IMG/VR virus record: IMGVR_UViG_3300013306_000372
Location: 1-32,394 of that record
DNA length: 32,394 nt
Strand: one strand, 5' to 3'
Source: a virus
Below, in pieces: positions 1,574 to 32,033 of this stretch. The notes beneath the pieces are model-generated. The model saw nothing but the letters and a program-made list of their open reading frames with translations, searched no databases and had not been told where the DNA came from. Every line of letters begins with the position of its first letter. The first letter of the stretch is position 1. A program made the position numbers and the translations under genes.

Positions 1574-2056
1574 TTAGCTTGTTAGCGTGTGAAATGAGAC
1601 GAACACCCTGAAAGGCCCGCCCGCCAAGACTTCCAGTTGTTTTTGCGGATCCTCCGACTAAGCCGAAAAGCACACCAAGACGACCACTTCAGAATTCGAA
1701 TACACACCGAAAACCACATTTTTAATTTTTTCGCTCAATGAAACAGGGGTTTCCAGTGCTACCCCTCCTCAATCGCCCGGCAGCACCGCTGCGCAACCGC
1801 GCTGCATTTCGTTTCAAAACCTTGCACAAAATGAAATTGCCGATCGCCTGCGGAACCCTGCGGCCCGCCTGGGCTGCCGGTTCGTTTGCACTACATCCGG
1901 TTTTGCACAAAAAAAGGACACAAAGCCCGTCGGCGGGAGGGGGATAAGTGCTTTTTTATTGATTTTTTTTTTGCCGAGGCATTTTTTTGTAATGACGCGC
2001 AACACCAATTGATTGAGCGAAATTGTGTCACCCGTCGAAATGTCTTACGCACAAGA
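1574..2056. other. Non-coding stretch upstream of umuD
   Basis: I see no supported gene. Short frames on both strands (for example 1738-1947) have arginine/proline-rich, unprotein-like composition. Two copies of TTGCACAAAA occur at 1822-1831 and 1903-1912. Long T-tracts occur between about 1950 and 1990. One of them follows a small CCCG-TCGG-CGGG stem (about 1926-1937) and could end an upstream transcript. The open frame of umuD runs back through this region to 1886, but that extension is not credible as protein. Confidence 0.5.
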
Positions 2057-2085
2057 TTGACCGCGACTTGTCCGCCGCGTTTACT
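2057..2085 (+). promoter_or_regulatory. Candidate sigma-70 promoter of umuDC
   Basis: TTGACC (2057-2062) and TTTACT (2080-2085) are separated by 17 bp. The -10 element overlaps the start of the LexA box at 2084, so LexA binding would block polymerase. Confidence 0.55.
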
Positions 2086-2099
2086 GTATGTACATACAG
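2084..2099. promoter_or_regulatory. LexA (SOS) box upstream of umuD
   Basis: CTGTATGTACATACAG is a perfect 16-bp palindrome that fits the CTGT-N8-ACAG LexA consensus of Pseudomonas and enterics. It lies 23 bp upstream of the umuD start, so umuDC should be repressed until RecA-triggered LexA cleavage. Confidence 0.93.
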
Positions 2100-2122
2100 C
2101 AATTTCTTATTGGGTTTGCATC

Positions 2123-2554
2123 ATGAGTGTCACCATCCTTGGTCCGCTGTCAGAGGGAGGCGCAAAGCTTCCGTTCTATTCTTTCCAAATTCCGGCCGGG
2201 TTCCCGTCGCCGGCGGCCGATCACATCGAAAAGCACATCTCCCTGGACGAGCTGTTCGAGATCCGAGCCCCGCACGTTTATTTGGCAAAGATCGAGGGCG
2301 ACAGCATGGAAGGTGCCGGCATTTTTTGCGGGGACATGGTGGTGGTCAATCGCAGCCTGACCGCCGAGCACGGCGATATCGTGATCGCTGGCCTCAATGC
2401 CGAGCCGATCTGCAAGCGCCTGCACATACGCGATAACACCATCATCCTGATGTCTGCGAATACTAAGTATCCGCCGCGCTATGTGATGGAGGGCGACGAG
2501 CTGTTGATCTGGGGCGTGGTGACTTACAGCGTGCGCGACCATGCCAAGTCGTGA
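2123..2554 (+). CDS. umuD: UmuD/RulA-like S24 peptidase, polymerase V accessory subunit
   Basis: Starting at ATG 2123 gives 143 residues, the usual UmuD length; upstream in-frame sequence has no UmuD character. The RecA-stimulated self-cleavage site is Ala25-Gly26 in IPAGFPSPA. The catalytic serine is Ser61 (GDSMEGAGI) and the lysine is Lys98 (PICKRL). After cleavage, UmuD' joins UmuC to form an error-prone translesion polymerase. The gene overlaps umuC by 14 bp, so the two are translationally coupled. A perfect LexA box and a promoter lie just upstream. Similar operons (rulAB) are common on Pseudomonas plasmids and mobile elements; here the operon is prophage cargo at the end opposite the integrase. 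All residues expected for activity are present. Confidence 0.93.
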   Translation: MSVTILGPLSEGGAKLPFYSFQIPAGFPSPAADHIEKHISLDELFEIRAPHVYLAKIEGDSMEGAGIFCGDMVVVNRSLTAEHGDIVIAGLNAEPICKRLHIRDNTIILMSANTKYPPRYVMEGDELLIWGVVTYSVRDHAKS

Positions 2555-3821
2555 GCCGGTCTTTGCCCTGATTGACTGCAACAGCTTCTATGCCAGCTGC
2601 GAGCGCGTGTTCCGGCCTGACCTTGCCAAGACGCCAATCGTCGTTCTGAGCAACAACGACGGTTGCGTCATCGCGCGCAGCTACGACGCCAAACCTTTCG
2701 TGAAAATGGGCGCCCCGTACTTTCAGATCAAAGACGTGCTGCGCAAGCACGGTGTGCAGGTGTTCAGCAGCAACTATGCACTGTACGGCGACATGAGCGA
2801 ACGGGTCATGAGTATCATCGAATCCATGGTGCCCACCGTCGAGGTGTACAGCATCGACGAGGCCTTCGCTGACCTGACAGGCATACCCGGCGACCTGACC
2901 GCATTTGGGCGAACGATCCGCGCCGCCGTCTACAAAGGAACGGGCATTCCGGTAGGCGTAGGCATTGCTCCCACAAAAACCTTGGCCAAACTCGCCAACC
3001 ACACAGCGAAACGCTTGCAGGCGGAGACGGGCGGCGTCGTGGATATCTGCGACCCGGTCAAACGCGACTGGGTGCTGCGAAACACAGACGTAGGCGAAGT
3101 GTGGGGCGTCGGCCGTCGCATGAAAGCGCATCTCGAAACCATGCAAATCAAATCAGCGATGGATCTAGCGAAAGCCGACCCATGGACGCTCCGGCAGAAA
3201 TTCAGCGTGGTGATCGAGAAGACCGCGCGCGAGCTCACTGGAACGTCGTGCCTCGAGCTTACCGAGGCCGAACCGGCCAAGCAGGAGATCTGCAGCAGTC
3301 GCATGTTCGGCAAGCGTCTGACGACCATAGAGCCGATCAAAGAAGCGGTCGCCACCTACGTGCAGCGTGCGGCGGAAAAGCTGCGGGCGCAGAACTCGCT
3401 GTGCAAGAAACTGCGCGTCAGCATCCGCACCGGCATGTTCAGTCCGGAGGAAGCCAAGTACGCCAACGGTGCGCTGGTTGAACTACCCTACCCGACGAAT
3501 GACGTGAGGGTATTGACCAAGGCGGCGACCGAGGCGATTCACCGCCTATTCCGGCCTGGCTTCAAATACAGCAAGGCTGAAGTGCTGTTGATGGATCTGC
3601 GGCAGCCTGGGGAATTCACAGACGACCTTTTCGCCCAGTCGCAACCGCAAGCGGCTGAAAAAGTAATGAGTGTGCTAGATGAGATCAATCAACGATGGGG
3701 CCGGGGAACACTTCGCACCGGAGGGGTGCCAGCGACGCCTGATTGGGGGATGCGGAGGGAGATGATGAGTCAAAGCTTCACCACGAAACTTGATCAGCTA
3801 TGGGTTGTAAAATCCACCTGA
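2541..3821 (+). CDS. umuC: UmuC/RulB-like Y-family DNA polymerase V catalytic subunit
   Basis: This 426-residue protein has full UmuC length. The N-terminal palm carries the first metal ligand Asp12 (LIDCNSFYASCERVF) and the second pair Asp106-Glu107 (VYSIDEAFADLTG). The NNDGCVIARS motif (about 38-47) matches the fingers of UmuC proteins. The C-terminus contains the RWGRGTLR and DWGMRREMMS motifs of the UmuC C-terminal domain. It would copy past DNA lesions with UmuD' and RecA, giving SOS mutagenesis to the lysogen and possibly to the replicating phage. The gene is in one operon with umuD under LexA control. The next gene starts after a 71-bp gap holding a strong hairpin. No frameshift or missing catalytic residue is visible. 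Confidence 0.94.
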   Translation: MPSREPVFALIDCNSFYASCERVFRPDLAKTPIVVLSNNDGCVIARSYDAKPFVKMGAPYFQIKDVLRKHGVQVFSSNYALYGDMSERVMSIIESMVPTVEVYSIDEAFADLTGIPGDLTAFGRTIRAAVYKGTGIPVGVGIAPTKTLAKLANHTAKRLQAETGGVVDICDPVKRDWVLRNTDVGEVWGVGRRMKAHLETMQIKSAMDLAKADPWTLRQKFSVVIEKTARELTGTSCLELTEAEPAKQEICSSRMFGKRLTTIEPIKEAVATYVQRAAEKLRAQNSLCKKLRVSIRTGMFSPEEAKYANGALVELPYPTNDVRVLTKAATEAIHRLFRPGFKYSKAEVLLMDLRQPGEFTDDLFAQSQPQAAEKVMSVLDEINQRWGRGTLRTGGVPATPDWGMRREMMSQSFTTKLDQLWVVKST

Positions 3822-8838: not shown

Positions 8839-10548
8839 TCAGATCAGTTTGATTCGGCCGGGATAGGCGATGTTGCGCGGACGGGTTTCCGTGGCAAATG
8901 TGCCGCTTGGATAACCGTCAAAAAACGTCTGCGCGGGAATGGTGTCGTTCGCCCATTTGTTCGGCAGGGCGAATGCCCAGGCGGTGTCGAGGATCAGGGC
9001 GGTACCGCCGTCGGCGCCGGCCGATGTAGGCAGGTAGTGTTGGTGATGCTGCAGTGCAGATCCTTGAGAGCTGCCGGCCACGCGGTTGAGATCCACAGCC
9101 CGGCTTTCATCCAGCACACGAAGAAACTCACCGCGACCCTCAGGGCCACGGAAGGTCAACGCACCGGTGCCGCTCGTCCAGCCGCCTTCCTTACCGATGC
9201 GCGCCGCCTCGGTGGTCAACATTCCCGATTGTTGTGCGTGATCCCACAACCATGGCCATTCGGCACGGACCAGCTCTCGACCGTTGAGCGGCCCGTAGCC
9301 TCCCGGATTGAACAGCGTTGTGGTCTCGAAAACCGGTCGACCGAGTGGCGTGTTGTCGTGCCGCGCGATCGGCCACCAACTGCCGGCGCCGTCACTGCGC
9401 AGGTGCCAAAAATCACCCGCGCCCATGAGCACAAAGAACGAATACCCGGCCGCGTTGAGGTGGGTGTGAAACTTGATCTTGTCGGTGCCTTGGGCAGCAA
9501 TCACCAGACGGTTTCCGGCGTTATCTACACGCCGAACAAGAATGTCCATGACGCCCAGGGCGGCATCAGCGACCGGCAACGTCACCGTGCGATTGGATGC
9601 GGCCGCATCGATCAGTACCAGCCCCCGGTTGAGTCCGGTCAACGTCGTGTCCGCCGCCAAACTGGTGACCACATTGCGAATCGCGAAGTGCTTCACCAGT
9701 GGTCCGCCGATCGGCTCCACCGGCCGGCGATCAGTCACGGTGTTTGAGTTCGGCAGATCCGCGATCGCCACACAGTAATGACGGACCCCGGCACTGTCGG
9801 TGTAATCGGCCTTGTCCGGACCAAACACCACTTTCCAACTGGCCACGACATCGTTCAGCTCGCGTTGCAGGCACACATCCAGCCACGCCGTGGTCGGAAA
9901 CGCCGGCGGCACCACGGCCAATACCGAGGAACGCTCAATCCGGATGCCTTCCAGATAACCGGTTCCGGGTTTGAGTTGATAGGTCGCCCCCACTTTCTCC
10001 AACTGCAGCGACGTGCCGAAAAAACATGCACGGCCAAACACATCGCGGTTGCTCATCCGCTCACGCTCATCGATGCCGGCCAGGCGCACGGTGAAGTCGT
10101 GTTGCCAGGTCTTGGCATCAATGGTGATACCAGTGATTGCCTGGGCACCGTCAAAGGCCACCAGGAAGTTTCGAGTCAGGTTGTTGCCGATCTGCAGCGG
10201 CGGGATGTTCCGGCGCTTCTGCTGCAGAGGCACGTAGGCGACCGCGAACAGAATGCCCTCAGCCGACTCCAGACCGATCCAGTTGAAATCCCAATCACCC
10301 ACGTCGGACCCGATCTGTGCGCTGTACACCACCTGGTTGGGGTTTACATAGCCGGCGTGATCCCCCGGAATTTCGTGCACATACACAATCTGAGCCGCGG
10401 CGGGTTTCGGCGCCGAGCGATTGACCGGACTGTTCGGGTCAAGTCCTGGAACTTTGGCAAAGATGAACCGACGCACTTCCAGCCCCTGCAGGGCTGCAAG
10501 TTTTTGCGCAATCAGGCTTTCGCCGGCGAGGGTAATACTGGCTCCCAT
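8839..10548 (-). CDS. Tail fibre protein (gpH-like, DUF3751 N-terminus)
   Basis: This 569-residue protein has a virion-attachment N-terminus (about 1-150) with the pattern of the phage tail-collar fibre family: GLEVRRFIFAKVPGLDP, then NWIGLESAEGILFAVAYVP. The middle contains beta-rich repeats. The C-terminal part carries NPGGYGPLNGRELV and LQHHQHYLP, which resembles the collar/tip region with His-x-x-His motifs seen in fibre tips. It is likely the receptor-binding fibre that sets host range. It follows gpI and precedes the assembly gene, as in P2 (I-H-G). Confidence 0.82.
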   Translation of the reverse strand: MGASITLAGESLIAQKLAALQGLEVRRFIFAKVPGLDPNSPVNRSAPKPAAAQIVYVHEIPGDHAGYVNPNQVVYSAQIGSDVGDWDFNWIGLESAEGILFAVAYVPLQQKRRNIPPLQIGNNLTRNFLVAFDGAQAITGITIDAKTWQHDFTVRLAGIDERERMSNRDVFGRACFFGTSLQLEKVGATYQLKPGTGYLEGIRIERSSVLAVVPPAFPTTAWLDVCLQRELNDVVASWKVVFGPDKADYTDSAGVRHYCVAIADLPNSNTVTDRRPVEPIGGPLVKHFAIRNVVTSLAADTTLTGLNRGLVLIDAAASNRTVTLPVADAALGVMDILVRRVDNAGNRLVIAAQGTDKIKFHTHLNAAGYSFFVLMGAGDFWHLRSDGAGSWWPIARHDNTPLGRPVFETTTLFNPGGYGPLNGRELVRAEWPWLWDHAQQSGMLTTEAARIGKEGGWTSGTGALTFRGPEGRGEFLRVLDESRAVDLNRVAGSSQGSALQHHQHYLPTSAGADGGTALILDTAWAFALPNKWANDTIPAQTFFDGYPSGTFATETRPRNIAYPGRIKLI

Positions 10549-10559
10549 TGACGGGGCTC

Positions 10560-11084
10560 CTAGAGGCTGGCAACCAGCGTTTGCTGGTCGTCGTTGAAGT
10601 CGACCAGCGCAATGCCCATTGGCACCGACGTGATGGTCACGAAGTCATAACGGCGGCAGGTGCGGCCGTATTGCTGGATCAATACGCGCAGCAGTTCGGG
10701 GTTTTGGGACAGTTGGGTGTCGGAGAACCGCAGCAGCACGACATCCCAATCCCGGTCGGGCATGCGCTCCTCGATCTCGACATAACCCACGCCCAGGCGT
10801 ACCAGAATGCGTTTCATGCCGGCCGTGCTGCCAGCGTCGACCGCGTTGATGAAGGCGAACTTCACGCGCAGCCGGTAGAGCGCTTCGGGCTCGCCCTTGA
10901 ACCGGGTGATGTCGCGCTGCCAAGCCAGCAGATCGAGCACGATCAAGTGGCAGGTGTCGGCATCCATCTGCAGCAACGGCCAGCGCAACCAGCCCTCAAC
11001 CTTTTCCCACCAGCTTTGCGCGGCATCTTTGAGTTTGGTCAGCTCGGTACCGGCCAGCCAGAACTTGAGGTTCAGCTTAATCAT
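10560..11084 (-). CDS. Tail protein I (gpI-like baseplate wedge)
   Basis: This 174-residue protein overlaps the baseplate J gene by 8 bp and precedes the fibre gene, the canonical J-I-H position. Residues about 20-100 (WWEKVEGWLRWPLLQMDADT, then LAWQRDITRFKGEPEALYRL) show the Trp-rich helical pattern of tail protein I, which joins the fibre to the wedge. No other motif is seen. Confidence 0.72.
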   Translation of the reverse strand: MIKLNLKFWLAGTELTKLKDAAQSWWEKVEGWLRWPLLQMDADTCHLIVLDLLAWQRDITRFKGEPEALYRLRVKFAFINAVDAGSTAGMKRILVRLGVGYVEIEERMPDRDWDVVLLRFSDTQLSQNPELLRVLIQQYGRTCRRYDFVTITSVPMGIALVDFNDDQQTLVASL

Positions 11085-12566: not shown

Positions 12567-14548
12567 CCCGGTACCGCCATGTTCACCATGTTTTCCATCT
12601 CCAGCTGAGTCATAGGCTTGCTGTTGTGGATCTCGACTTTCTCCACGTGCATGCCCCGGTTCTGGCTGCTGTTGTTGTTCTGAATGCTGGTCAGCAGGCC
12701 GCCCTGCGGTACCGCACTCGGCCGCACAGGTGACAAACTCGGGATGGCTGCATTGATGGTGTTTTGAGCCTTCTGCGCGGCGGCAGCGCTGTCGGCGTTG
12801 TTCACGCCGATGTCAGTGCCGGGCACCTCGGGCATGGCGCCGAATTTGGTCTCGATGTTGACGCCTGGGATCTTGTTCAGCATCTCGATCAGGTTGTTGA
12901 TCGAGGTGTGAAAGATCGCGACGATGCCGTCCCAAGCGGCCTTGGCCATGCCACTCCAGCCGCCCATCGACGTGAACCAGTCAGACAGTGCCGACAATTG
13001 ATCGCTGACCCACTTGAAGGCCTCACTGTTCATCAGCGCGGACGTCCATTCGTCCCAGTACACGACCGCCAGAGTGATCACGGCGATCAACGCCACAATC
13101 CCCGCGACGATCAACAACACCGGGTTGGCCAACATCGCGGCGTTGACCAGCCAGATTGCGGCTTGCCACAGCATCATGCCGGCTCGAATAACGCCCATCG
13201 TTGTGTACATCACCACCAGGCCCGCGACCAACAAGGCGATCACTGTCGCCTGCAGCAGAAAGCCTGCAATCGCCCGCAGGTTGAGCAGTTGAACGACTTT
13301 CCAGACAGTCACCATCGCGAGCCAGGCCATGCGGCTGATACCGACGGCTAAGGTCAGCAAAGACATGGCGGCAATGATCGCCAGAATGGTCAGCGTGACG
13401 ATGCCGATCACGCGAGCGATGTTGGGAAAGATCTGCGCCCAGCGAGCCATGGTGCTGGCAATGCCGCTGAGTTTGGCCATCAGTGGCGTGAGTATCGGCA
13501 GCAACACCTGGCCGAACACGATGCGCAGCGCTTCAACAGCGGCAGTGAACTGCTGCCAAGGATCGACCATCGCATCAGCCATGTTCTTGGCGTCTTCGAG
13601 CCCGCGCACCTTGCCCAGTTTGTCCAGGCTGTTGCGCAAGCGATCGCTGTCCTTGGACAAGGCACCGATCACCTGGGCGCCTTCACCACCGAACGCTTCC
13701 ACCAGTTTTGCGCTGGCGGACGCGGTGGTCAGATCGCCCAACTTGCCTTCCAGCTTGGACATGATGTCCAACATCGGCAGGGCCTTGCCCTGGTCGTCGG
13801 TGAACTTCATGCCCATCTTCTCGGACGCCGCGCCGAGGTTTTCAAAGAAAGCCTTGTAGCGTCCGCCGGCGTCGCCGCCCTCCATGGTGCTGGACAGCGA
13901 ACCGATCACCGCGAACTGCTCGGCAATATCCACGCCGCTGGCCGTAGCAATGGCCCCCACTTCCTTGAAGGCGTCTTTAAGCTGGGCGCCGTCAGTGCGG
14001 AACAGCTGCACCGCGAGAGCAGTCTGGCCGCCCAACTTTTCGACCCACTCGCCTTTGCCCATCGCGTCTGCCTGGCCCTTGAACAAGTTGTACATGGTGC
14101 CCACGTAGGAGCCCATGGTTTCAGCGTCGGATTTGGTGGCCTTGGCCAGCAGGTTGCTGGTGTTGGTGAAGGTGGCCAACTGGCTGCCGGTCAGGCCCTT
14201 GATCGCGCCCTCGATGCTGTACGCCGAGGCGACAAAATCCCGGGCGTTCTCGCCGTAGTTCATCGAGAACTCAAGGGCCTTCTGATTCAGCGCCGTCAGC
14301 GCGTCTTCTGCCACGCCCAGGGATTTGACCTCGCCCAGGGCGCGGTTCATCTCCAGCGCTGGCTGCAACGATTCGTTGATACCGACGAACGCACCGGTAA
14401 CGCCCGCCAAGCCCATGCCCATCGTCTTGATGTTCTTTTCGCTTTGCTCGGTCAGCTCGGAAAAGCTCATTTTCACCTTGCCCAGTGGTGCGGTGACCTT
14501 GTCGGTCAGGGCCAGGATGAAGTCCAGGCGGGCGCTACGGTCGGCCAT
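12563..14548 (-). CDS. Tail tape measure protein
   Basis: This 661-residue protein is the second longest in the prophage after the terminase frame. The N-terminus (LDFILALTDKVTAPLGKVKM) is typical of phage tape measure proteins. Long helical, alanine-rich segments lie at about 50-350, followed by several hydrophobic segments at about 365-510, as in proteins that set tail length and help DNA cross the inner membrane. It begins 7 bp after the end of the frameshifted tail chaperone frame, with AGGA as Shine-Dalgarno. The length predicts a tail somewhat shorter than P2 (815-residue tape measure). Confidence 0.92.
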   Translation of the reverse strand: MADRSARLDFILALTDKVTAPLGKVKMSFSELTEQSEKNIKTMGMGLAGVTGAFVGINESLQPALEMNRALGEVKSLGVAEDALTALNQKALEFSMNYGENARDFVASAYSIEGAIKGLTGSQLATFTNTSNLLAKATKSDAETMGSYVGTMYNLFKGQADAMGKGEWVEKLGGQTALAVQLFRTDGAQLKDAFKEVGAIATASGVDIAEQFAVIGSLSSTMEGGDAGGRYKAFFENLGAASEKMGMKFTDDQGKALPMLDIMSKLEGKLGDLTTASASAKLVEAFGGEGAQVIGALSKDSDRLRNSLDKLGKVRGLEDAKNMADAMVDPWQQFTAAVEALRIVFGQVLLPILTPLMAKLSGIASTMARWAQIFPNIARVIGIVTLTILAIIAAMSLLTLAVGISRMAWLAMVTVWKVVQLLNLRAIAGFLLQATVIALLVAGLVVMYTTMGVIRAGMMLWQAAIWLVNAAMLANPVLLIVAGIVALIAVITLAVVYWDEWTSALMNSEAFKWVSDQLSALSDWFTSMGGWSGMAKAAWDGIVAIFHTSINNLIEMLNKIPGVNIETKFGAMPEVPGTDIGVNNADSAAAAQKAQNTINAAIPSLSPVRPSAVPQGGLLTSIQNNNSSQNRGMHVEKVEIHNSKPMTQLEMENMVNMAVPG

Positions 14549-25525: not shown

Positions 25526-25786
25526 ATGCGAATTTACTGCACGGCCTGCGACCACAAAGGGCGCATCAGTTCTCGGGAAGAAATTACTCGGGGCTATGTG
25601 AAGCTTTACTGCCAGTGCTTGGACGCGCAGTGCGGGCACACCTGGGTATCCGAACTGACTTTCAAACATTCATTGCGGCCACCGGGACAACGCATCGACA
25701 CGCTCCTACTAGAGAGGATCAGAAATTTGCCAGCGGAGCAGCAGCAAGAACTGTTCCTGCAGGTCAGCTCCTCGCAACCAGGCTGA
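25526..25786 (+). CDS. ogr: Ogr/Delta-like zinc-finger late gene activator
   Basis: This 86-residue protein begins MRIYCTACDHKGRISSREEI, with YCQCLDAQCGHTWVSELTFK at about 31-50. The CxxC and CxxxxCGHTW spacing is diagnostic of Ogr/Delta activators, which bind zinc and recruit RNA polymerase alpha to P2-type late promoters. The Shine-Dalgarno GGGAGG lies 6 bases before ATG. In P2 the gene sits near attP; here it directly follows the portal gene. It should switch on the late operon and terminase. Confidence 0.92.
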   Translation: MRIYCTACDHKGRISSREEITRGYVKLYCQCLDAQCGHTWVSELTFKHSLRPPGQRIDTLLLERIRNLPAEQQQELFLQVSSSQPG

Positions 25787-26087
25787 GCGCAGTACCCTGT
25801 TCGCAACCTCCCCGACGCGACCAAGCCCCTCCGTTCCAGTGCCCCCAGTGCACATCTCTCGACATACACACCGGAATGCCTGCAGCGCAGGCATATAAGC
25901 CGCAAACCCAACCTCAGCTGATACCGACAATCTTAGTGCGGCGGAACCCGCGTAGCGGCCGGTTGTCGGACAAATTCGCACCAGAAACTCTCAGCAGCGC
26001 CGGCCGATCCTGCCCGCGAGCGCTGCCCGTGAAATTTGCAGCTCACCTCGGCGCGCCCAATTGCCGCTTTGTGCCCGCTGAATGGCT

Positions 26088-26157
26088 GGCACGAAGTGCC
26101 GGGCATCCAGCATGGGTGCAGGGCACTGCCCTGCCGCTGGGCGGGCGCGTAGCCCGC
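26088..26157. repeat. Cluster of three perfect hairpins
   Basis: GGCAC-GAA-GTGCC (26088-26100), GCAGGGC-ACT-GCCCTGC (26118-26134) and GCGGGC-GCGTA-GCCCGC (26141-26157) follow each other within 70 bp. None is followed by a T-run. They could be primosome or initiator structures, terminators of convergent transcripts, or packaging signals. Confidence 0.6.
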
Positions 26158-26245
26158 GATCCTCATAAAAAGCTGAGCGCAGCGAACTGAGCCTTTGGGC
26201 GAAGGCATCATCTTGTACCCAACACACCGCCCCTGTGGACACCTC

Positions 26246-26315
26246 GAAAGCCTCTTTTTATACCCAACGGGGGTGCTGAGGGGGGTATAAAATTCCATTT
26301 AATTCAAAGGCTTTC
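26246..26315. repeat. Nested inverted repeat with AT-rich flank
   Basis: An outer pair GAAAGCCT (26246-26253) / AGGCTTTC (26308-26315) encloses an inner perfect 10-bp pair TTTTATACCC (26256-26265) / GGGTATAAAA (26283-26292). The 15-base stretch between the right inner and outer arms (26293-26307) is AT-rich and could be a DNA-unwinding element. Confidence 0.65.
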
Positions 26316-26489
26316 TGGTTGCCCCGCTTGCGCGCCGGCGGCGCGGCTAAATTGCGCTGTAACGGAGACGTACACATGGCGAATTGCCGCCGTGGCGATG
26401 CTAGGCGGAAGGTTGGGGGCTGAGATAGAGTGTTTTCTTGACTGCCAGACGTAGCCTGGCCTCGCAGGGGATGCGATCGCTTCGGGGGG

Positions 26490-27398
26490 TTAGGTGTCTT
26501 TCTTTACCTGGACGTTGCGCAGCAGGCGTGCCAGGGATTCGTCCACGCCACCAGGCCTACTATCGGGCTCCTGAGGAGCCCTACTGCGACCAGGAGAATT
26601 GCCCTGCTCTGGCATCTCACCTTGGCTGTGAGCCACCTTGCGTGCCTCACTACGCTCCCAGTTGGTACGTGACTGCTCGCGGCGCAGGGCTTCCAAGGAC
26701 GCCTTCTCCTGACGCGCCAGGCGAAGCCCGCTAATGTTACGGAGCTCCTTTTCACGCTTCTTCAGTGCTGCCTTTTTGGCCCGATACCAGAGGTACCGTA
26801 CACCGAGGTCAGCAAAGAACTTTTCAGTGAATCGCACCAGGACACGAGTTCGCACCAGGTTAAGCCCAGCTTCGTCCTTTTCCTCCAGACGGATTTTCTC
26901 GACACGCCGGTAAACATAGTCAGCCAGCTCCATGCTGTGCAGCAGACGATTGAAGGATGCAGCAGAAACGCCGCTATCCTCTGCGACACCGCACTGGGTG
27001 TTGAGAAAAAACTGCCCCCGCTCGACGTCGAGCCATCCCATAACGCCCGTGGCCAGATCCAGACGCAACAGCATCTGCTCTGCAACTTTGGCCAGCGCGT
27101 CGAATTTCTCGGACCGTGTACGGCGGCCACCGTGGATAGTGTCCAGATCGCGTAAGTACATACCGCGCAGGTCGCCGATTTGACTAAGACGCTTGAACGC
27201 CATCCGCAGTAGGGGGTTTTTAAGCTGCTGGCCAGTCAGCCGTCGCGGAGCGGAATACCTTGGTGTTCGAGCAGGCGCTCGTAGAGCCGCGTGGGGATCT
27301 TTCTTGTCGCGATGAACGACAACAGGCCGGCCTTTGTTAGGTCCGACCTTTCGGCTGCTTGCCGATCGCGACTGGATGTCCTTGTCCTGATGAGTCAC
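26490..27398 (-). CDS. RepA-like replication initiator (IncFII RepA pattern)
   Basis: This 302-residue, very basic protein starts at GTG 27398. Residues about 60-220 follow the IncFII RepA layout. A helical block (NPLLRMAFKRLSQIGDLRG) comes first, then a winged-helix-like segment NTQCGVAEDSGVSAASFNRL with LHSMELADYVYRR, then RTRVLVRFTEKFFADLGV and a long basic helix YRAKKAALKKREKEL. The C-terminus is a disordered charged tail. No P2 gpA rolling-circle nicking motif (paired tyrosines) is seen anywhere in the window. It is third in the cro operon, so it should be made on induction and start theta-type replication at a nearby origin. Family membership is judged by pattern only; it could be a distant RepA relative. 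Confidence 0.68.
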   Translation of the reverse strand: MTHQDKDIQSRSASSRKVGPNKGRPVVVHRDKKDPHAALRAPARTPRYSAPRRLTGQQLKNPLLRMAFKRLSQIGDLRGMYLRDLDTIHGGRRTRSEKFDALAKVAEQMLLRLDLATGVMGWLDVERGQFFLNTQCGVAEDSGVSAASFNRLLHSMELADYVYRRVEKIRLEEKDEAGLNLVRTRVLVRFTEKFFADLGVRYLWYRAKKAALKKREKELRNISGLRLARQEKASLEALRREQSRTNWERSEARKVAHSQGEMPEQGNSPGRSRAPQEPDSRPGGVDESLARLLRNVQVKKDT

Positions 27399-27403
27399 AG
27401 AGG

Positions 27404-28027
27404 CTAGTTCACCTGGGACAGGTGGGGCATTTGAGGCTGCTCAAGCAGAACATTCTCGGCGCGCGTGCGCAGTTCACTGCAACGAGCCTCGACCGAACGT
27501 AGGCGATCGACAAACTCAGGCAGCTTGTCCAGATCCTCGATGTCGATGCGCCCGTCCGCTAGGATCTCGCTGCCGAGAGCAACAGTATTTCCCAGTCGAG
27601 CCACTAGCTGGCCGAACGCCCCTACCGGGTTGCCATCGCCGTTCAGCTCACGCGCTCCAGTAAGACCATGACGATGAGCCAGCTCGTTGATGCAACAATC
27701 TTTGAAGTCACCTTCCAACGCACCTACCCATGACTCCTCGATCCAACTCGGCAGATCGACCTCACCACTGAGCCAGCGCCCGACGCGGCGTAGCCAGGCG
27801 CCTGATGCTCTAAGGAACGACGCGCTGTCGTTGCTCTGGGCAAGCTTCTCGAAGTCGGGCACGTCCTTAATGACAGCCTTGGCGGGGATCTGACGATGCA
27901 GGTTGCAACTCAGCGCCTGGGCGAAATCGTCCTGGCTCAAACCTGTGCGGGCAATCATCTCGGCGGCATGAGCGACGAGCACTTGATCGCGAGAAATGGA
28001 CAACTGTCCGTGTATGGACGTGGTCAA
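27404..28027 (-). CDS. Unassigned early protein between cro and repA
   Basis: This 207-residue protein begins at TTG 28027, whose TTGA overlaps the cro stop, so translation is probably coupled; no clear Shine-Dalgarno is seen. The N-terminal part (about 10-55) contains LVAHAAEMIARTGLSQDDFA, then QALSCNLH, which has a helix-turn-helix flavour. The rest is helical and acidic, ending in a likely coiled coil (LRSVEARCSELRTRAENVLL). I do not recognise the family. Position between Cro and the initiator suggests a replication partner, copy-number control or a CII-like regulator. No enzyme motif is visible. Confidence 0.55.
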   Translation of the reverse strand: MTTSIHGQLSISRDQVLVAHAAEMIARTGLSQDDFAQALSCNLHRQIPAKAVIKDVPDFEKLAQSNDSASFLRASGAWLRRVGRWLSGEVDLPSWIEESWVGALEGDFKDCCINELAHRHGLTGARELNGDGNPVGAFGQLVARLGNTVALGSEILADGRIDIEDLDKLPEFVDRLRSVEARCSELRTRAENVLLEQPQMPHLSQVN

Positions 28028-28284
28028 GGAAGTTCACCGCACTTAGGCTGCCCCAACGCTTTCCCATGGCTGGATTTAGCGCCATCGGAAGACCCCGCAT
28101 GATCCTGAGAAGGGAACGGGCGAGTTTCCTGAGCTGCACAAGCACCATCGTCACCAATTGTCACGGTGATGTTGCGATGAGTTCTTATAGCTTTCGCGAT
28201 AGACGCAGGTTTTACACCCAGCGCCCGCGCGACAGGAGCCTGACCCATCCGCTGGACTAGATCACTAAGGGACATCTTTTCCAT
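28024..28284 (-). CDS. cro: Lambda Cro-like repressor
   Basis: ATG 28284 has AGGTG six bases upstream and gives 86 residues; a GTG at 28293 is an alternative. The sequence SLSDLVQRMGQAPVARALGV, followed by KPASIAKAIRTHRNITVTI and ETRPFPS, aligns along the whole length of lambda Cro, including the helix-turn-helix and the C-terminal PFPS motif. About 20 extra residues follow. Cro would shut off repressor synthesis and favour lytic growth. It is the first gene of the minus-strand early operon with the 27404-28027 gene and repA, divergent from the repressor. Confidence 0.87.
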   Translation of the reverse strand: MEKMSLSDLVQRMGQAPVARALGVKPASIAKAIRTHRNITVTIGDDGACAAQETRPFPSQDHAGSSDGAKSSHGKALGQPKCGELP

Positions 28285-28315
28285 GTCATACACCTAAGAC
28301 TGATGAATGACCGAA

Positions 28316-28344: not shown

Positions 28345-28381
28345 TGCCTACGGCTAATCTTTAAGGTTAGCCAGCGGCTTA
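28319..28381. promoter_or_regulatory. Three-site operator (OR-like) between cro and cI
   Basis: A 15-bp motif TTAGCC-N3-GGCTAA is seen as TTAGCC-AGC-GGCTTA at 28367-28381 (one mismatch) and AATGCC-TAC-GGCTAA at 28343-28357. A poorer half-site, TTAACC-GCT-AACATA, is at 28319-28333. The starts are exactly 24 bp apart, like the lambda OR1-OR2-OR3 arrangement. The third site is supported mostly by spacing and one half. Confidence 0.7.
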
Positions 28382-28394
28382 TACTTCGACAATG
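28380..28394 (+). promoter_or_regulatory. PRM-like -10 giving a leaderless cI transcript
   Basis: TATACT (28380-28385) lies six bases before the ATG at 28392, so transcription should start at or within one base of the start codon. No Shine-Dalgarno is present. The -35 position is poor (ATCTTT at 28357-28362), as for lambda PRM, which is leaderless and needs CI activation. The operator at 28367-28381 overlaps this -10, giving negative autoregulation. Confidence 0.6.
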
Positions 28395-29111
28395 ACTAAA
28401 AAAAAGCCGATCGCCCCTGCCCTGTTCGCGGAATGCCAAGCAGCTCATGAGCTCTATCTTTCCAAGAAGAACGCTCTCAAGCTGAATCAACGGAAAATTG
28501 CCGATGCCGCAGGCATAACACCGGTTTCGGTGAACCATTATTTGAAGGGTATAAATGCGCTCAATGCCCGCTTTGCCTCGGTACTGGCAAAGCTGCTAAA
28601 CGAGCCGGTCGAGAGCTTCAGTCCACGCCTTGCTGCCGAGATCGAGGGCATGGCAGCTACAAGCAGTCACTCCAACATTTCCCCAATGCTGCAACCTCAC
28701 AGAGAGGCCCGAGAATACCCTTTGATTTCATGGGTTGCCGCCGGCGAGCAGATTGAATCTTCCGTCTGCTATCCGACCGGAATTGCAGACGATTGGCTGT
28801 CGTCTACGGAGAATGCAGGGCCACGTGGGTATTGGCTCAAGGTGAAGGGAAAGTCGATGACATCGGACACGCCGCCTAGCTTCCCGGAAGGCACTCCGAT
28901 ATTGATTCGCCCTGAAGGCTTTGACCTCATCAGCGGCAAGTTCTACATTGCCCGCCACACTGTCAGCGGCGAAACCACCTTCAAGCAATACAATCTTGAT
29001 GCTGGGGTGGGCTACCTGGTGCCACTCAATCCAGAGTACAAGGCAGTAGCTCTGGACGGTACTTGGGAAATTATCGGCCGTGCGATCGATGCGAAGATCA
29101 CCGGCATGTAA
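28392..29111 (+). CDS. cI: CI-like phage repressor, S24 self-cleaving
   Basis: This 239-residue protein has an N-terminal DNA-binding domain with a helix-turn-helix at about 32-58 (NQRKIADAAGITPVSVNHYL). The C-terminal LexA/CI domain has the cleavage site Ala117-Gly118 (ISWVAAGEQIES), catalytic Ser155 (KVKGKSMTS) and Lys198 (ETTFKQY). It should keep the prophage silent and self-cleave on RecA filaments during DNA damage. It is divergent from cro across a 107-bp operator region and probably translated from a leaderless mRNA. It ends 52 bp before the convergent unassigned operon. All residues required for SOS induction are present. Confidence 0.92.
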   Translation: MTKKKPIAPALFAECQAAHELYLSKKNALKLNQRKIADAAGITPVSVNHYLKGINALNARFASVLAKLLNEPVESFSPRLAAEIEGMAATSSHSNISPMLQPHREAREYPLISWVAAGEQIESSVCYPTGIADDWLSSTENAGPRGYWLKVKGKSMTSDTPPSFPEGTPILIRPEGFDLISGKFYIARHTVSGETTFKQYNLDAGVGYLVPLNPEYKAVALDGTWEIIGRAIDAKITGM

Positions 29112-29163: not shown

Positions 29164-29457
29164 TCATCCTCTAGCCTTTCGTGGACATAGCTTGTCTGCA
29201 CGGCCTTGGGCTGATCCGGGCGGGGCACTGTGCACCACGATATGGCCTTGGCCAATCTTGAAGTTTTTCATCACAGCGATGCACACGTTCCACGCCTCTC
29301 TTGCAACAGCATCGCCGGCTTCGACCACATTGCCCTGGTCATCGATAATAGCTAGACGTGCAGGACGCCCATCGGCAGTGCTGAACTCGTAACCGCTGCT
29401 GACATTGGCACTGATACGGCCTAATTCCAACGTGCCCGTCTTCGGGATTCCGATCAT
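29164..29457 (-). CDS. Unassigned small protein, second gene of operator-controlled operon
   Basis: This 97-residue protein starts at ATG 29457, overlapping the upstream stop as ATGA with a GGGGGAAG Shine-Dalgarno. The N-terminal half reads as a beta-sandwich (LELGRISANVSSGYEFSTAD, then ARLAIIDDQGNVVEA), and the C-terminus is basic. I do not recognise it. It is convergent with cI. The operon lies between repressor and integrase, a typical location for lysogeny-linked accessory genes or superinfection-exclusion factors; its role is unknown. Confidence 0.6.
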   Translation of the reverse strand: MIGIPKTGTLELGRISANVSSGYEFSTADGRPARLAIIDDQGNVVEAGDAVAREAWNVCIAVMKNFKIGQGHIVVHSAPPGSAQGRADKLCPRKARG

Positions 29458-29963
29458 TGTCTTCCCCCTACTTCAACACCTACAGAGCACTTGTTCACGA
29501 TCAGAGCGATGGTGGCGGCGTGGAGATCACGGCGACTTTGGGCTGTGTGTATCGCGCTCCAATTTTCTTTTTCAATTGCTGTATCGAGTTCAGCGTTTGC
29601 ACTCCTATATCCCTCAATGCTTTGACTAAACAGTCGTTTCGCATTTAGCTCCAGGATGGAAATGGTTAGCTGCGCATCGGCCTCTGGCGGGATTCTCTGA
29701 TCGTTGCAAATAGCAAGCTCCTCGAGAAAGGCGGCAATTCTTTCGGCAACGTAATCAGTTTTTGGGATGGTCAGACTGTTAACTGAACTACCCAGTCTGA
29801 CCTGAATTGATACATCGTCTAGGCCCTGCTCAATGGCAACAATGGCCGTCGCGGAGCAGCGCCCGTCTTCTGCAAAAAAATGGTGCGAAAAAATGCCGTT
29901 CTGAGTGACCTGGTCTAATAACTGAGAGCGCGCATCCGGCGAAAGGCAAAGGGCGTACATCAT
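29454..29963 (-). CDS. Unassigned protein, first gene of operator-controlled operon
   Basis: ATG 29963 has GGAGG five bases upstream (ATG 29960 is equally possible); the frame extends to a TTG at 29975. The product is about 169 residues and acidic. A beta-rich N-terminal half includes DDVSIQVRLGSSVNSLTIPK. A helical C-terminal half includes ILELNAKRLFSQSIEGYRSA and a possible coiled coil. I see no known family, membrane helix or catalytic motif. The upstream promoter is overlaid by the phage operator motif, so expression should rise on induction or be tuned by repressor/Cro. Confidence 0.62.
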   Translation of the reverse strand: MMYALCLSPDARSQLLDQVTQNGIFSHHFFAEDGRCSATAIVAIEQGLDDVSIQVRLGSSVNSLTIPKTDYVAERIAAFLEELAICNDQRIPPEADAQLTISILELNAKRLFSQSIEGYRSANAELDTAIEKENWSAIHTAQSRRDLHAATIALIVNKCSVGVEVGGRQ

Positions 29964-30019
29964 GTAAACCTCCAAAGCGATCAGGGCACCGCAGCGCGAT
30001 ACCCTGAACTGATGGAAGT

Positions 30020-30048
30020 AAATTAGCCTCAGGCTAATTCTATGTCAA
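30020..30048 (-). promoter_or_regulatory. Sigma-70 promoter of the 29164-29963 operon
   Basis: On the minus strand a perfect -35 TTGACA (30048-30043) and TAATTT (30025-30020) are separated by 17 bp. The perfect 15-bp operator at 30023-30037 fills the spacer, a classic repressible arrangement. Confidence 0.75.
30023..30037. promoter_or_regulatory. Phage operator, perfect palindrome
   Basis: TTAGCC-TCA-GGCTAA is a perfect two-fold site of the same form as the operators at 28343-28381. It lies inside the promoter at 30020-30048. Confidence 0.75.
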
Positions 30049-30076
30049 ACACCTGCGGCATATTTTTTGATTTTTA

Positions 30077-30091
30077 TTAGCCGCTGGATAA
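30077..30091. promoter_or_regulatory. Second upstream phage operator
   Basis: TTAGCC-GCT-GGATAA differs from the perfect site by one base and lies 54 bp (about five helical turns) from it, directly after the DUF1654 stop codon. Cooperative binding by repressor is possible. Confidence 0.65.
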
Positions 30092-30413: not shown

Positions 30414-32033
30414 CTAGCCCCAGTCCTCACTCGCCACCCAGTCGCCTGATTTCCTATGGATCCGAAGCAACCGGTGCTGTCCCGTGCGCGAGAATAGTTG
30501 CACATCGATGAATAGACCCTCTCGGTCGGTTGCGTCCACACCCCGCATGAAAATAACGATGCGACTGAATGTGTCCATAACCAACTGCCTGACACTATCT
30601 CTTGCTCCGTAATCTCCCGTCTCCACCTGGGCAGCCAGATCCGCCCATCGCTCAGCCTGGGCTGGTTGAGCGGCCCCTGCCGACATTGAACTCACTTCGT
30701 ATTCCAATGTTGAAACGCTTTGCTCAGCATCTCTAAGCTGTGATTCCAACTCCCTTGCCTTACGGACAAAGGCTAGAGGGGCGGCGCCACTCTCGTCTGC
30801 TAAAAGCGCATCAGTCACCTTGCCCAACTGACTCGTGATCTTCACAACAGCCGCCCTTGCATTCACAAGTTCACGATGGACAGCCTGACCGTCATCGCTT
30901 GGCTGCATCAGTCGCTGCAGGTTGAGCTGATCCGTGCAGAACTTGAGTAATGCTTGCTCAATTGGGACAACGCTGCAGCTGCCGCCGGCAGAGCAACCGC
31001 CGTTTTTGCTGTAAGAAGTGCAGTGCAACCTGCGATTGCCATCTGCAATGCTTCCATCAACACGCCTACGCTTCATTATGTTTTGCGCCACTAGCGCTGT
31101 GCCGCAGTAGCCACAGTAGGCCAATCCGACCCCGGTTATGATGCCTGGTATCTCCCCGGCTCCTCGACGACGCAACCGTTGACCCGCAAGGTGCTGCAGA
31201 TCATTCCATTCTTCATCTGACAGGATTCGCGGGTAGTACTCTTCGAGCTCGTAATCCTCGCCCTCCAGACTCAGTCTTTTGACACCGCGCAACGCAGGCA
31301 GCTTGATCGTCCGGTAAATCTGTAGTCCGGAGATTCCTCCCTCCGTCAGTTGAAATCCTTCTTCATGCATGATGTTTGCAGCACGGCCGGCACCGAGACC
31401 CAAACGGTAAAGCTCAAGAGCCCGCTTCACAGCAGCGACACGCTCTGGGATCAACTCCCACCCATCATTGGTCAAGCGTACCCACTGTGGGTCTTTACCG
31501 TTGCGGATCACGCCACGGAACGAACCCGACAACCACCCTTCACATTGACGACGGATTGCGGCTTTAACTCTCTTGCTCTTGGTGTCGGACTCTTCATGCG
31601 CCCTTATCATCACCAGGAGCGAATAAACCAAGTCCATAGGCTGAGCTTTCAAACCAGCCCTGTTGTACTCGCGGCCGTCGCTTGCGGTAACGACGGTAAT
31701 ACCTGCATTGATAATCTGGGCCAATTGAGCCTGAGCTTGAATAGGCTCTGCTCGACTCAAGCGGTCCAGGCCTTCCACCACCAGAACTGATCCACTAGCA
31801 ATCCGGCCGTCCTCGATCGCCCGAAGGAAAACCCCCAATGCCCCTTGTTTCACATGACGCTGGTGGTAGGCAGACAACCCTTCGTCTTTCAGTGTCAGCG
31901 TGGCGTCCAATGCCATGCCTCGTTCTGCGGCCCAGGACGCAGCGTAGGCAAGTTGGCGATCGGCACTGCTCCCTACTGCTTGGCGCGGATCCGAGAATCG
32001 CAGATAGCTATAAACTTGCCCGGTCATTTTCAT
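30414..32033 (-). CDS. int: Large serine recombinase, phage integrase
   Basis: This 539-residue protein has a resolvase/invertase catalytic domain at about 5-155 with nucleophile Ser14 (YSYLRFSDPRQ) and the VVEGLDRLSR motif at 85-94. The Recombinase domain is at about 185-290. A zinc ribbon has Cys307/Cys310 and Cys338/Cys347, and a coiled-coil-like helical stretch runs at about 385-450. It would cut attB in rimO and attP with 2-bp overhangs and exchange strands; excision needs a directionality factor I could not identify. The gene lies next to attR and reads toward the phage interior. P2-like phages normally use tyrosine integrases, so this module appears exchanged. Start 32033 has no strong Shine-Dalgarno; Met3 is an alternative. 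Confidence 0.95.
   Translation of the reverse strand: MKMTGQVYSYLRFSDPRQAVGSSADRQLAYAASWAAERGMALDATLTLKDEGLSAYHQRHVKQGALGVFLRAIEDGRIASGSVLVVEGLDRLSRAEPIQAQAQLAQIINAGITVVTASDGREYNRAGLKAQPMDLVYSLLVMIRAHEESDTKSKRVKAAIRRQCEGWLSGSFRGVIRNGKDPQWVRLTNDGWELIPERVAAVKRALELYRLGLGAGRAANIMHEEGFQLTEGGISGLQIYRTIKLPALRGVKRLSLEGEDYELEEYYPRILSDEEWNDLQHLAGQRLRRRGAGEIPGIITGVGLAYCGYCGTALVAQNIMKRRRVDGSIADGNRRLHCTSYSKNGGCSAGGSCSVVPIEQALLKFCTDQLNLQRLMQPSDDGQAVHRELVNARAAVVKITSQLGKVTDALLADESGAAPLAFVRKARELESQLRDAEQSVSTLEYEVSSMSAGAAQPAQAERWADLAAQVETGDYGARDSVRQLVMDTFSRIVIFMRGVDATDREGLFIDVQLFSRTGQHRLLRIHRKSGDWVASEDWG

Follow-up and report, generated by a model that had tools for sequence, protein, structure and literature searches.

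The analysed DNA, a viral stretch of 32,394 nucleotides (hereafter the window), very probably comes from a P2-like Pseudomonas prophage lineage that has replaced gpA by a plasmid REx-R module, formed by the initiator RepJ and a core approximately 190 bp downstream, and uses this module for its replication. A preliminary description made from the sequence had proposed a plasmid-like replication module in place of gpA. This stood in part: a plasmid-type initiator was found in the place of gpA, but its family is RepJ and not IncFII, and the cognate plasmid-type origin located just downstream from repJ was not part of that description. The features of the region are listed in Table 1.

Table 1. 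Features of the repJ region and of the neighbouring phage genes (positions in the window)
Feature	Positions	Strand	Basis
Ogr/Delta late activator, convergent with repJ	25526-25786	+	PF04606, 9e-9
Putative origin region, non-coding, between repJ and ogr	25787-26489	-	Conserved in related phage loci
Second conserved palindromic block (GGGCAGTGCCC)	26113-26161	-	Locus comparison
Origin core (TAAATGGAATTTTATACCCC..CAG..CCCC..GGGTATAAAAAGAGGCTTTCGAGGTGTCCACAG)	26233-26305	-	Non-phage DNA HMM
10-bp perfect inverted repeat TTTTATACCC / GGGTATAAAA within the core	26256-26292		Repeat analysis
repJ, 302-aa RepJ-family replication initiator (by homology)	26490-27398	-	Homology, model, dN/dS
CII-like regulator, directly upstream from repJ	27404-28027	-	PHROG 4834, 4e-32
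Cro repressor, first gene of the early operon	28024-28293	-	PF09048, 7e-25
Operator-like palindrome TTAGCCAGCGGCTTA, cI-cro interval	28367-28381 (also 30023-30037, 30077-30091)	+
CI-type S24 repressor, divergent from cro	28392-29111	+	PF00717, 1.8e-19
Large serine integrase, beside host rimO (from 32233)	30414-32033	-	PF00239, PF07508, PF13408

The repJ gene and the family of its product

The repJ reading frame is uninterrupted and starts with GTG; inspection of the sequence located a ribosome site, AGGTGA, within the 3' end of the preceding gene. With a dN/dS ratio of 0.07-0.12, repJ is a real, intact gene under purifying selection.

The window protein shares 54% identity over 240 aa with RepJ of plasmid pPsv48C (E 4e-88). 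A tblastn search against plasmid sequences (PLSDB) matched 32 records from Pseudomonas and Azotobacter, with identities of 36-58%, among them pA506 and pPsv48C, the latter at its repJ gene. RepJ of pPsv48C has been shown experimentally to be a replication initiator (Bardaji 2017, PMC5304414), and a premature stop in its gene abolishes replication (PMC5304414). Homology to pPsv48C RepJ thus assigns the window protein to the RepJ family of Pseudomonas plasmid initiators. No significant match to it was obtained in Pfam, PHROGs, NCBIfam or PDB sequences.

An AlphaFold model of the protein (pLDDT 74, pTM 0.57) predicted a winged helix at approximately residues 61-202, followed by a long basic helix (residues 200-257). 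Comparison of the modelled fold returned generic winged helices at best; the RepA_N-type winged-helix initiators 4pql and 4pt7 scored at that same level (Z 5.3), and the fold search yielded no specific initiator match.

The preliminary description had seen an IncFII RepA pattern in this protein and had asked for an HMM comparison with PF02387. This comparison gave no match at E<=10 in any of ten records, and a search of 369 gammaproteobacterial genomes for PF02387 relatives, from which a better profile could be built, returned none. The hhalign score of the window protein against R100 RepA was 18.4, inside the range of the shuffled controls (best of 150, 27.4). A remote relative of IncFII RepA, arranged as RepA/CIS/oriR, would resemble the window in the succession of initiator, spacer of about 190 bp and origin, as well as in the order of the domains, and the hhalign match is indeed collinear with the HTH region. 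However, the likeness concerns the general layout only, no sequence relation being detected, and with HMM, hhalign and shuffle controls all negative IncFII RepA identity was rejected; we regard this reading as barely credible. The true plasmid relative is RepJ.

The origin core downstream from repJ

The end of repJ and ogr are separated by 703 bp, and blocks of this interval also occur in plasmid repJ loci. A DNA HMM for a core of approximately 70 bp, built from 12 non-phage repJ loci, found a single match in the window (26305-26238, minus strand; E 2e-16), starting at about +188 from the repJ stop codon. Each of the 16 related phage loci that were searched had the core at the matching distance after repJ. 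It was also found in most repJ loci of a second batch, including all six of phage type; some of these loci came from genomes already sampled, so that not every one counts as independent.

The core occupies approximately 30708-30773 of pPsv48C, whose published minimal replicon extends to 30760 (PMC5304414), so that most of the core falls inside it. By the core HMM and this overlap, the window carries the downstream element needed for replication in RepJ/REx-R systems (the SaL4 region), and the coordinates suggest that the core is SaL4 itself. The inverted repeat of the window core has a DNA fold z of -1.84 and is imperfect in several relatives. The second palindromic block also occurs downstream from repJ in two other loci, L037 and L061. 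No DnaA boxes above chance were found, and no Rfam matches were obtained. In L061, RepJ (2817-3659) occurs together with the core; the contig is assigned to a cyanobacterial MAG and is probably Pseudomonas contamination.

The window resembles the RepJ replicons of pPsv48C and pA506 in its homologous initiator, in a core that overlaps the downstream part required for replication and lies at a closely similar distance, and in having no iterons. The plasmids, in contrast, possess REx-C (antisense RNA, leader peptide and SaL1-3), which the window lacks; in the window, repJ closes a cro-cII operon of a P2-like phage that integrates. An N-terminal extension of about 30 aa also differs between the proteins.

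PSA3335_1080, a RepJ homologue located in a chromosome, is unable to replicate by itself but replicates once a REx-C module is supplied (PMC5304414), which means that its Rep-plus-downstream part needed only added control or expression signals. This homologue is unlikely to belong to the phage clade: its published size and its identity of 72.7% to RepJ are in keeping with the non-phage loci, of which L066 is an example. It probably lies nearer the plasmid clade, so that its replication result transfers to the phage module by homology. The RepJ homologue of L066 (9965-10807), found in P. avellanae amid polysaccharide and transport genes, has no REx-C match and a degraded core; it is likely of the PSA3335_1080 type of the 2017 paper.

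Phage context and control of repJ

The virion genes are of P2 type and follow the P2 order (portal, terminase, capsid, sheath, tape measure), in agreement with the preliminary description; together with ogr, these P2-order virion and packaging genes place the phage in the Peduoviridae. The absence of gpA that had been noted was confirmed: PF05840 matched none of 16 virus records, namely the window and 15 related ones, while the E. coli control was positive, and no gpA was found elsewhere in the genome. P2 gpA and RepJ are alike in functional slot only, and no sequence relation between them was detected. No recognised primase or helicase was found in the window. The sister Peduoviridae phages UFJF_PfPro and phi3 have the same order of virion and packaging genes, with TerL 71-77% identical; unlike the window, they carry a primase of approximately 900 aa (PHROG 1139) and a recombinase of the phage-integrase family, and neither has RepJ or, by the core HMM, the origin core. 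At the left end of the window lie a gene for a DUF2971 protein (573-1520) and a UmuD/UmuC-type operon (1886-3821), which may be phage cargo or host flank; a UmuC match was present in 3 of the 16 related virus records, the window among them.

The placement of the initiator in the cro operon was also borne out, the order being cro, CII-like gene and repJ, with repJ last. In another phage, PotUPM1, the CII homologue is followed by a gene for an O-like replication initiator, which supports an initiator slot at the position of repJ.

No significant match to REx-C was found at repJ in the window or in the phage loci tested, so that the window lacks this upstream element, which is restricted to clades I and II. 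Since clades III and IV do not conserve REx-C (PMC5304414), its absence bars membership among the complete plasmid replicons but not membership of the Rep family. Operator-like palindromes (TTAGCCnnnGGCTAA) occur three times in the window, against 0.46 expected, and 3 of 100 shuffles reach this number. From the absence of REx-C and the presence of such a palindrome in the cI-cro interval, we infer that repJ is expressed under CI/Cro control. A search by consensus for sigma-70 promoters and terminators yielded none. Two of the palindromes (30023-30091) are located upstream from a 173-aa gene (29454-29975), which suggests a second CI-regulated promoter at that site.

In the most likely course of events, CI would keep the early promoter silent in the lysogen. 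Upon induction, cro, cII and repJ would be transcribed and the winged helix of RepJ would bind the nearby AT-rich palindromic core. RepJ would then direct replication of plasmid type, not of rolling-circle type, during the lytic cycle, presumably with the helicase, primase and polymerase of the host, because the window holds no recognised primase, helicase or gpA.

The resemblance of the RepJ model to winged-helix regulators could also mean that the protein is a relic, a DNA-binding regulator, or an incompatibility or exclusion factor directed against RepJ plasmids, in a phage that replicates otherwise. This is very improbable: the cognate core is retained at a similar offset, repJ is under purifying selection, no other replication gene was recognised, and repJ occupies the position of the initiator in PotUPM1.

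A P2-like lineage carries here a complete plasmid module of initiator and origin where gpA or a primase is expected, and phage repressors would take over from the antisense-RNA control of the plasmids. The 2017 RepJ paper did not mention phages and left open the role of chromosomal RepJ homologues (PMC5304414); the present finding gives a role to those of the phage clade.

Distribution and the phage-plasmid question

The order of the module is kept in 34 IMG/VR loci and in 11 loci from Pseudomonas genomes, truncated loci on contigs that end early having been set aside. Phage-type RepJ, with 63-92% identity, occurred in 6 of 399 sampled Pseudomonas species genomes; in two of the six the element is present once per genome, on a contig of 5.5 Mb in one and of 6.5 Mb in the other. 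The tree sets the phage RepJ proteins apart from the plasmid clade almost completely, a single row (L059) being unstable, so that phage-type RepJ may have had a single origin.

The preliminary description had raised the idea that the genome persists as an episome. RepJ would then keep a low-copy episome in lysogens and integration would be optional, in line with the fact that RepJ replicons are stable plasmids (PMC5304414). Phage-plasmids are extrachromosomal and combine rep with par; in this element rep is present and no par gene was recognised. Wherever host flank was available, including the two chromosome-size contigs, the element was integrated near rimO behind the serine integrase, at the same site in relatives. 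No long exact att repeat was found. REx-C control is absent, and PLSDB contained no phage-type RepJ, the best match reaching 58%. Persistence as a phage-plasmid is thus not supported for this lineage, and we consider it unlikely.

For the RepJ family at large the idea keeps some sense, since three phage-plasmids carry distant homologues (36-37% identity): two from P. aeruginosa, pPAC1.3b and CP124676, and P. luteola FDAARGOS_637 unnamed2. These share contractile-tailed phage genes with the window, but are extrachromosomal records, all with a ParA-type gene, and their RepJ is only remotely related. The RepJ-like genes of these phage-plasmids are located at 36061-36894 (L046), 39157-40011 (L047) and 10043-10921 (L048). 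In the P. aeruginosa phage-plasmids the core HMM matched weakly (E 0.027) at +179, where the core would be expected, and it found none in that of P. luteola, a P2-order phage broken by a mercury transposon.

According to a 2024 review, no phage-plasmid has yet been seen to form through the acquisition of genes (PMC11652158); the integrating RepJ phages offer a testable intermediate between phages and plasmids. Tentatively, and with some doubt, RepJ and its origin might be seen as an exchangeable unit among conjugative plasmids, phage-plasmids and integrating P2-like phages, in which gain of REx-C could turn a prophage into a phage-plasmid and its loss a phage-plasmid into a prophage. In P. viridiflava (L067), a plasmid-type repJ is duplicated in tandem (10007-10846 and 12935-13774), with a REx-C match upstream from each copy.
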